Below are positions 29,112 through 30,523 of a DNA stretch of 47,988 nt, piece by piece. The translations under genes and the position numbers were made by a program. Source of the stretch: Blastocladiella britannica (lineage: Eukaryota; Blastocladiomycota; Blastocladiomycetes; Blastocladiales; Blastocladiaceae); the NCBI GenBank assembly GCA_025349905.2, contig MU624544.1, positions 1-47,988 of the forward strand, in the 5' to 3' direction. The notes under the pieces are model-generated. The model saw only the letters and a program-made list of their open reading frames with translations, was not told the DNA's origin and did no database searches. The stretch's first letter is position 1. Every line of letters begins with the position of its first letter.

Positions 29112-30523
29112 TCACACCACCACAATCTCGCCCAGCTCACTCTCGTCGTCGTACTCGTGCAATAACAGCGCGCTGCTCGTCCCATTAACGCCGCGTCGTT
29201 GGCTTTGAGACGCCGGCGTCTCGTACCAAAACCCGTTCCCGACCGCGGGGACCGGCAGTGGCAGCAAAATGTACCACCATGGCCTAATTATCAGGCACGT
29301 CAGCATCATCCATAACAAACATCCGAAAAAAAATAACATACCGCTCCACCATATTCAAGTACGTCGCCAAGTTCCGTCGCCACCCGAGATCCCACTGCGA
29401 CGGCTCGCCCTTCTCCAAGTCCATGTACTCGAGCTGCGTGGCGTTCTTGAGCGTCAAGTACACGTGCCACCCGGCCATGCCCGCCAGCGCCAGCCCGAGA
29501 ATCGTCGCAATCATGTACGCAAACACGTACGGTTCGCGGCCGACCGGGTACGGCCAGGGACCATAGGGGATCAGCGCCGAGGGGGCGTACCGCGCACCCA
29601 AGACGGCAAATAACAGGCATCCGAGCGAGACGTAGACGAGGAACGCGACAAAGTACCGGTGGTTGTGGTGGCCGACGCAGTCTAATTTGTTTTAAACCAG
29701 TGAGCTTTGTTTGACACTGTTAATGAAGGATTCGCGTACTATTGAGCCCTGTTTTCAAGAAATGGATCAGTGAATCGCCAACCAATACCAGAAAAAAAAA
29801 AGAGGACATACATGGGCAATCTGAAGAGCAATCGCAGAAATCCATTCAGCGTGTCAGTCAGTACAGCAATTCAAAACTCAACCAAAATGGGAAGAGCGAC
29901 GAACGATGATCCCTATTCCCCTCAAGTCAGTGAGCGACGAGGATCCACGCAAAATACAAAGAAGTAAAAGTATACATTTTCATGACGCAGCGATTGCAGA
30001 CGCTGCAATGGTGGCACCGGGTCGGTTTTGGGACGTCGCACTTGCGGCAACGTTTTGGCGCGTCCTTTTTTTTTTGGCAGTCACAGCGTCAGTGATTCCC
30101 AATCCCACAATCCCCACGACAGCGTACCAGCACCGCCTCCGGGTCCGCGCCAACCTCGTCCACCGCGTAATTGGTGACGGTACACGCCATGTAATAGTTG
30201 AACAGGATGTTGACCACCAGCATCCCCGCGCACACCTCGAATGCGTACCACACCACCAGCGCCAGTGTTCCTGACCATATCCGATGTGGTGACCCTGGTA
30301 GTGGGTCAGCCACTTCGGGGCGGTAGTCGGGCCACACCATCACAAAGAACGTCCAGGATATCAGACCAATGAGACCGAGCGCGGCTATTTGCAAGACGGG
30401 ACCGGCGGCACGTAACAACATGGCGGCGGCACGTGGCGCCGCGTCCAGAACCGTGTAGATGCATCCTTGCACTGTCGGGTGCGTCGCAATGGCGCGCAGC
30501 AGGTGGGCGGGGCGTGGGAACAT
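29112..30523 (-). CDS. DHHC palmitoyltransferase (Pfa3/ZDHHC2-15-20 type)
   Basis: Integral-membrane protein S-acyltransferase. Exons: 30523-30128, 30064-29976, microexons 29912-29905 (8 nt), 29820-29812 (9 nt) and 29748-29740 (9 nt), then 29681-29342 and 29283-29112. All six introns are GT..AG (63, 63, 84, 63, 58, 58 nt), and the coding length is 341 codons exactly. The first exon carries two transmembrane segments. Exon 2 gives the zinc-binding CRKCDVPKPTRCHHCSVCNR. The three microexons supply the catalytic DHHCPWLN, and the next exon resumes with [11 protein letters not shown], followed by two more transmembrane segments and LKNATQLEYMD and DLGWRRN. Joining exon 2 to the later exon without the microexons would lose the catalytic cysteine. 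The C-terminus is acidic. Located in Golgi, vacuole or plasma membrane in relatives; substrates unknown. Confidence 0.93.
29740..29912 (-). other. cluster of three microexons encoding the DHHC catalytic motif
   Basis: On the minus strand, GGATCATC (29912-29905) is preceded by AATAG and followed by GTTCG. ATTGCCCAT (29820-29812) is preceded by TTCAG and followed by GTATGT. GGCTCAATA (29748-29740) is preceded by AACAG and followed by GTACGC. Spliced between AT (29977-29976) and AC (29681-29680), they read [10 protein letters not shown] in frame, every codon at the borders being split. Confidence 0.9.

Follow-up and report, generated by a model that had tools for sequence, protein, structure and literature searches.

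The catalytic DHHC core of a predicted palmitoyltransferase of the aquatic fungus Blastocladiella britannica (Blastocladiomycota) is pieced together from three consecutive predicted exons of 8, 9 and 9 nt. This gene structure is real and unusual, in an otherwise ordinary enzyme, and the three microexons are likely to be included in nearly every normal transcript through sequential, intron-defined removal of the introns around them, and not by way of a dedicated switch. Motif-coding microexons are already known; what is new here is a run of three that together code for the active site of a fungal enzyme.

Exon structure and encoded protein

The window, that is, the whole stretch of DNA analyzed, covers bases 1–47,988 of a contig of assembly G000 that is 78,899 bases long. 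When spliced at GT-AG borders, a seven-exon predicted gene on the minus strand (30523-29112) gives one open frame of 340 codons, with exon lengths of 396, 89, 8, 9, 9, 340, and 172 nt and introns 1–6 of 63, 63, 84, 63, 58, and 58 nt. By microexon we mean an internal coding exon of at most 51 nt, and by small microexon one of at most 15 nt; the three exons of 8, 9, and 9 nt are of this length and are bordered on both sides by GT-AG introns. The features of the gene are as follows:

Exon 1, 30128..30523, minus strand: 396 nt, with the ATG at 30523 and phase 0 at its end; identical to P0001
Exon 2, 29976..30064, minus strand: 89 nt, Cys-rich part, ending in ...CNRCVMK plus AT, phase 2
Intron 2, 29913..29975, minus strand: 63 nt, GTATAC...TAG, with a branch-like ACTGACT
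Microexon 1, 29905..29912, minus strand: 8 nt, GGATCATC, coding the end of M, D, H, and base 1 of H
Intron 3, 29821..29904, minus strand: 84 nt, GTTCGT...CAG
Microexon 2, 29812..29820, minus strand: 9 nt, ATTGCCCAT, coding the rest of H, the catalytic C, P, and base 1 of W
Intron 4, 29749..29811, minus strand: 63 nt, GTATGT...CAG, with the strongest donor of the four
Microexon 3, 29740..29748, minus strand: 9 nt, GGCTCAATA, coding the rest of W, L, N, and base 1 of N
Intron 5, 29682..29739, minus strand: 58 nt, GTACGC...TAG, in the weak donor context ATA/GTACGC
Exon 6, 29342..29681, minus strand: 340 nt, residues after the DHHC core and downstream
Exon 7, 29112..29283, minus strand: 172 nt, with the stop codon ending at 29112

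The four introns around the microexons (63, 84, 63, and 58 nt) start with GT and end with AG in every case, and a functional DHHC core would need their exact removal within about 300 bases. Exon 2 ends in phase 2 and each microexon in phase 1, so that a codon is split at every border. An earlier note on this DNA had given these coordinates, exon lengths and intron sizes, which were right when the minus strand was read again and spliced; the spliced model also bears out its claims that each microexon leaves phase 1, with the border codons split, and that three consecutive microexons supply the catalytic core, the product being the deposited protein. Upstream of the palmitoyltransferase gene, in the same strand, lies a coproporphyrinogen III oxidase gene (30643-31797); downstream and convergent to it lies a protein-L-isoaspartate methyltransferase gene (28173-29050), with its profile split over two open frames and its stop about 60 nt from that of the palmitoyltransferase gene. 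At default thresholds, searches of the window for known RNA families and for tRNAs gave no match.

The spliced 340-aa product is identical, letter for letter (100% identity over 100%), to P0001, a deposited B. britannica protein named "DHHC palmitoyltransferase-domain-containing protein [Blastocladiella britannica]". The earlier note predicted that gene finders would very likely miss the microexons; this did not happen, because the deposited P0001 holds the residues of all three. The deposited model may derive from homology-guided prediction. The B. britannica data of one paper came, according to its text, from the JGI MycoCosm portal (PMC6299283).

Comparison with a protein database, in which the 7,995 candidates with most words in common were scored, returned 629 matches. 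P0001 was the best match among the best 120 of these 629, many of which carry the name ZDHHC16; DHHCPW is present in 120/120 of them (118 by pattern and two by eye), the own record included. The spliced protein matches Pfam DHHC (PF01529) with 133 bits (cut-off 28.7; E 9e-39) and, by sequence comparison, eight distinct sequences of solved DHHC enzymes, among them 6bms ("Palmitoyltransferase", E 2.9e-27) and 6bml (human DHHC20, E 5.8e-25). The two nearest relatives, P0002 from B. emersonii (50%) and P0003 from Allomyces arbusculus (47%), have the same 15-residue core as P0001, and residues C138, C141, H150, H151, C152, C155, C158, D163, H164, H165, C166, and C172 are invariant in 11 aligned sequences. 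As a DHHC family protein it is unremarkable, and the exon structure is its sole unusual feature. The DPG and TTxE motifs that flank the DHHC core are common in the family and non-defining; a TQLE stretch occupies the TTxE place. In the B. britannica, B. emersonii, and Allomyces arbusculus enzymes (P0001, P0002, and P0003), xPG is missing ahead of the Cys-rich domain; the other 8/11 aligned proteins have it there, two of them as the strict DPG.

With the outer borders fixed and under the limits chosen, 77 GT-AG chains with 1–4 internal exons fit between exons 2 and 6, of which one gives DHHCPWLNN; two more contain DHHC, and these are the same chain minus the last, or the last two, microexons. 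With movable outer borders, 1 of the 840 GT-AG chains tried leads to P0001. When the 294-nt interval was dinucleotide-shuffled 3,000 times, DHHC appeared in 3 of the shuffles and DHHCPW and DHHCPWxNNC in 0, with a mean of 43 chains per shuffle versus 64 in the real interval under identical limits. A chance origin of the DHHCPW chain is practically excluded.

Splice signals and probable inclusion of the microexons

Splice-site weights were obtained, by leave-one-out, from 37 introns of the same genome (21 from kinases, eight from DHHC paralogues and eight from kinesins), a small reference set whose kinase introns were selected because their removal restores HRDLKPEN, and in which the entry of 152 nt is uncertain. 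The leave-one-out scores of these introns span 11.3–23.9 (median 19.4) and their lengths 55–152 nt (median 61), with 32/37 measuring 55–70 nt; this agrees with the earlier view that the intron sizes are normal for the genome, and intron 3, of 84 nt, exceeds most of the reference introns in length. Introns 2, 3, and 4 score 17.9, 19.4, and 23.1, above 13, 19, and 36 of the 37 reference introns, respectively, and introns 1 and 6 score 21.2 and 16.5. Intron 5 scores 13.6, above 2/37, because its donor is weak (1.7 bits versus 9.1 bits for that of intron 4, just upstream). This donor, just after microexon 3, is the weakest of the gene and a possible point of alternative splicing. A first splice model, fitted in-sample to 24 introns, at least three of them misplaced (L051, L061, and L062), had called all four microexon introns ordinary, with 18.5 for intron 5, and was superseded.

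We favor constitutive inclusion of the microexons because introns 2–4 carry ordinary to strong splice signals and, over a switch, because skipping demands introns of 130–294 nt versus a median of 61. The four short introns would be removed one after another, by intron definition, to assemble the DHHC core; exons of this size would hardly have room for two splicing complexes simultaneously, which would impose removal in sequence. Similarly, the two introns flanking a microexon in plants are likely removed successively (PMC8831610), and in Caenorhabditis elegans shorter flanking introns release microexons from dependence on PRP-40 (PMC8378409). The introns retained in stress ESTs of B. emersonii measure 55–333 nt, mostly 60–79, with GT-AG in 102/105 and a CTAAC-like branch site (PMC2773782). 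The weak donor of intron 5 lowers our confidence in constitutive inclusion and raises that in a switch.

Loss of one microexon (the first, second or third, in this order) requires an intron of 155, 156, or 130 nt, and loss of all three one of 294 nt. The frame is kept by the two 9-nt exons and not by that of 8 nt. Loss of the 8-nt exon is predicted to shift the frame, with a stop after 167 aa; loss of the first 9-nt exon, to give an in-frame protein of 337 aa (MDHRLNNC) without the catalytic Cys; loss of the second 9-nt exon (microexon 3), an in-frame protein of 337 aa with DHHCPYCVG; and loss of both 9-nt exons, one of 334 aa with MDHHCVG, in which the letters DHHC are re-formed. It had been proposed that, without the microexons, the protein would run on from VMK into the exon 6 residues; instead, loss of all three is predicted to shift the frame (KILRRPPQPP...), because they total 26 nt. 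Likewise, of the consequences of skipping anticipated in the earlier note, the frame shift from loss of the 8-nt exon and the deletion of part of the active site with the first 9-nt exon stand, but loss of both 9-nt exons would leave the DHHC letters re-formed. As for retention, keeping intron 2, 3, or 5 is predicted to bring a stop after 177, 179, or 176 aa, whereas intron 4 would be read in frame, free of stops, inserting 21 residues. For introns 2, 3, and 5 the stop would come no more than about 17 codons from the D codon; enzyme activity would therefore require accurate splicing but would not be controlled by it. The likeliest alternative product is the transcript with microexon 3 skipped (DHHCPYCVG, in frame) or with intron 5 kept, because the weak donor of intron 5 lies beside the strong donor of intron 4.

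These same predictions bear on a regulated switch, as the earlier note proposed: if inclusion of the microexons were controlled, the enzyme would be active in some states of the cell and dead, altered or truncated in others. Its control point would be the weak donor of intron 5, next to the strong one of intron 4, the in-frame skips (the 337-aa protein without the catalytic Cys, DHHCPYCVG and MDHHCVG) would be its alternative products, and a switch-like microexon is reported for Trichoderma Xlr2 (PMC11121469). However, the first exon is of 8 nt, so its loss, or that of all three, shifts the frame; the skips call for introns well beyond the median length; and we found no unusual RNA fold that could serve as splicing aid or control element in the 294-nt interval (z +1.0), and no repeat within it (minimum length 10, seeds of 8). 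We thus consider a switch unlikely.

It also seems quite improbable that the microexons, while constitutive, act as a passive stress gate, the dense introns giving the enzyme a useful sensitivity to the inhibition of splicing by heat or cadmium. The truncation after 176–179 residues upon retention of intron 2, 3, or 5, and the 21 aa added by intron 4, would suit such a gate. In the sister species B. emersonii, 181/6,350 ESTs with stress contained retained introns versus 45/23,350 without it, that is, 2.9% in heat and cadmium libraries versus 0.2% in unstressed ones (PMC2773782); it is this retention that makes a stress gate possible for the gene examined here, although the authors of that study deem it most probably random and non-regulatory (PMC2773782). 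Nothing links the palmitoyltransferase gene to stress. Finally, such short exons are difficult to predict when the sequence is the sole guide, but a wrong model, with the DHHC core supplied by another exon or with coincidental fragments in a decaying pseudogene, is very improbable in view of the 1/840 chains leading to P0001, the identical deposited protein, the 0/3,000 shuffles with DHHCPW, the 340-aa open frame, and the conservation of the Cys/His columns invariant in the 11 aligned proteins.

Comparison with known microexons

In plant invertases, a tiny exon codes for residues of a conserved enzyme motif (PMC8831610). This 9-nt plant microexon resembles those of the palmitoyltransferase gene in its phase 1, in coding residues of a conserved enzyme motif and in that gene models without it are wrong; however, it is a single exon and occurs in plants (PMC8831610), whereas here there are three in a row, in a fungus and in a DHHC acyltransferase. 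The Peptidase M1 gene of land plants and Zygnema contains adjacent microexons of 5 and 12 nt (PMC11096116; rice transcript in PMC8831610), which are also consecutive and within a conserved domain (PMC11096116), and for which the Zygnema authors proposed gradual intronization (PMC11096116). They differ in being two, in another lineage and verified by RNA (PMC11096116), whereas those described here are three and predicted. Human RPS24 is reported to have three neighboring microexons, between exons 4 and 6, but these are alternatively spliced (PMC11162997, PMC12686416). Likewise, Xlr2 from Trichoderma virens is a case of a functional microexon in a fungus, although it is a single one, works as a glucose-dependent switch and belongs to a transcription factor (PMC11121469).

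Our literature searches brought up neither a microexon of a DHHC enzyme nor any other case of three consecutive exons of 8–9 nt coding for a fungal active site. If confirmed by RNA, the gene would offer a natural stress test for a fungal spliceosome, which has to join three exons of 8–9 nt one after another, and would add a fungus to the animals and plants in which microexons have mostly been studied. One amplicon could then show in which order the introns are removed, how the weak donor of intron 5 is used and how often errors occur.

Intron positions in paralogues and in other catalytic motifs

A profile search indicated at least four DHHC genes in the genome, a lower bound. Their intron positions, counted in nt from the first base of the D codon and with the paralogue borders read by hand, are:

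Window gene: introns at -1, +7, +16, and +25
C451 (L005): introns at -16 and +15, with DHHC on a 31-nt exon
C24: introns at -60 and +23
C476 (L008): introns at -39 and +16

All four genes (4/4) have an intron within +15 to +25, inside the PWxNN codons, and the exact position +16, in phase 1, is common to intron 4 of the window gene and the C476 intron. The shared position, together with the presence of an intron in this short range in 4/4 genes, suggests to us that the intron at the W codon is the older one, after which gains at -1, +7, and +25 would have left slivers of 8, 9, and 9 nt; this order of gains is read from four paralogues of one species. The 31-nt exon of L005 reads CVLKMDHHCP; one intron immediately precedes this exon and another separates P from W. 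L008 has DHHCIW in place of DHHCPW, its W-codon intron being the one at the position of intron 4. An origin from introners, that is, repeated, mobile introns, was rejected: for introns 2 and 3, a search of G000 in which very common words are passed over gave no match other than the intron itself, and the interval lacks repeats. The pattern GAYCAYCAYTGY had 99 matches in the genome, a minority of which were read; pattern TGYN12GAYCAYCAYTGY had six, three of them being the DHHC paralogues C24, C451, and C476. On reading, the match at L039 was no DHHC gene, and a kinase gene adjoins it; the matches at L041 and L042 were assessed from the matched letters alone.

Among 150 of the 163 matches from a kinase profile search, at least 31 adjacent exon pairs meet tightly on the profile, 17/31 of them at positions 116–127; the binomial probability of this excess is 6e-11 (uniform over 140 positions) or 1e-8 (over 100), values that still include exon-detection bias. 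We fetched 28 kinase segments, chosen non-randomly: 16 for meeting at 116–127 (14 of them cut) and 12 for residues missing nearby (seven cut). An intron lies inside the HRDLKPEN codons in 21/28 of these selected segments (L075-L086, L088, L090-L092, L095, L096, L099, L101, and L102), at nine nt positions: 4, 5 (seven times), 6 (two), 7 (two), 9, 12, 15 (three), 19 (two), and 21 (two). In L085, CRDIKPDN can also be read without splicing, and the intron scores of L075 and L091 are weak (9.2 and 9.4). In the other 7/28, the motif is uncut (L089, L098, and L100) or was not found (L087, L093, L094, and L097). A single conserved ancestral intron as sole explanation was rejected on account of the nine positions, one of which is shared by seven introns; the pattern resembles a repeated gain of introns within a single motif. 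That at least 21 kinases carry introns in their catalytic-loop codons, over nine positions, is an unexplained pattern beyond the DHHC gene and is relevant to whether the sites of new introns are random.

In kinesins, the P-loop GQTGxGKT is cut by an intron in four (L049, L051, and L062 by script; L061 by eye) of 13 readable genes and uncut in nine, with three further unreadable kinesins left out; the four introns are at different positions. Microexons had been suspected in three kinesin P-loops, but reading of the DNA revealed single introns. It is conceivable, although doubtful, that introns crowd the codons of catalytic motifs across families (DHHC, HRDLKPEN of kinases and P-loops of kinesins), so that complete splicing would gate signaling enzymes and stress would shut them down jointly, the triple-microexon enzyme being the most extreme case.

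No other exon of up to 30 nt was accepted in the small, non-random sample of genes examined, and the window gene therefore appears exceptional even in this genome. Candidates of 22 nt (kinesin L052) and 18 nt (L068) were set aside for their poor peptides, and one of 16 nt in kinase L092 because it needs a 103-nt intron, whereas a 61-nt alternative gives the better reading. Chains of lower rank whose middle exons measure 7–29 nt (L092-L094) were also set aside. DEAD-box helicases gave the motif pattern no support: 20/38 matches cover nearly the whole profile, and the five adjacent pairs recognized by eye meet at about profile positions 53–102, with no pile-up. By eye, three of about 16 Ras junctions fall near what we take to be the position of DTAGQE on the profile, and 2/12 Cpn60/TCP1 junctions near the presumed position of one motif, both weak tendencies.
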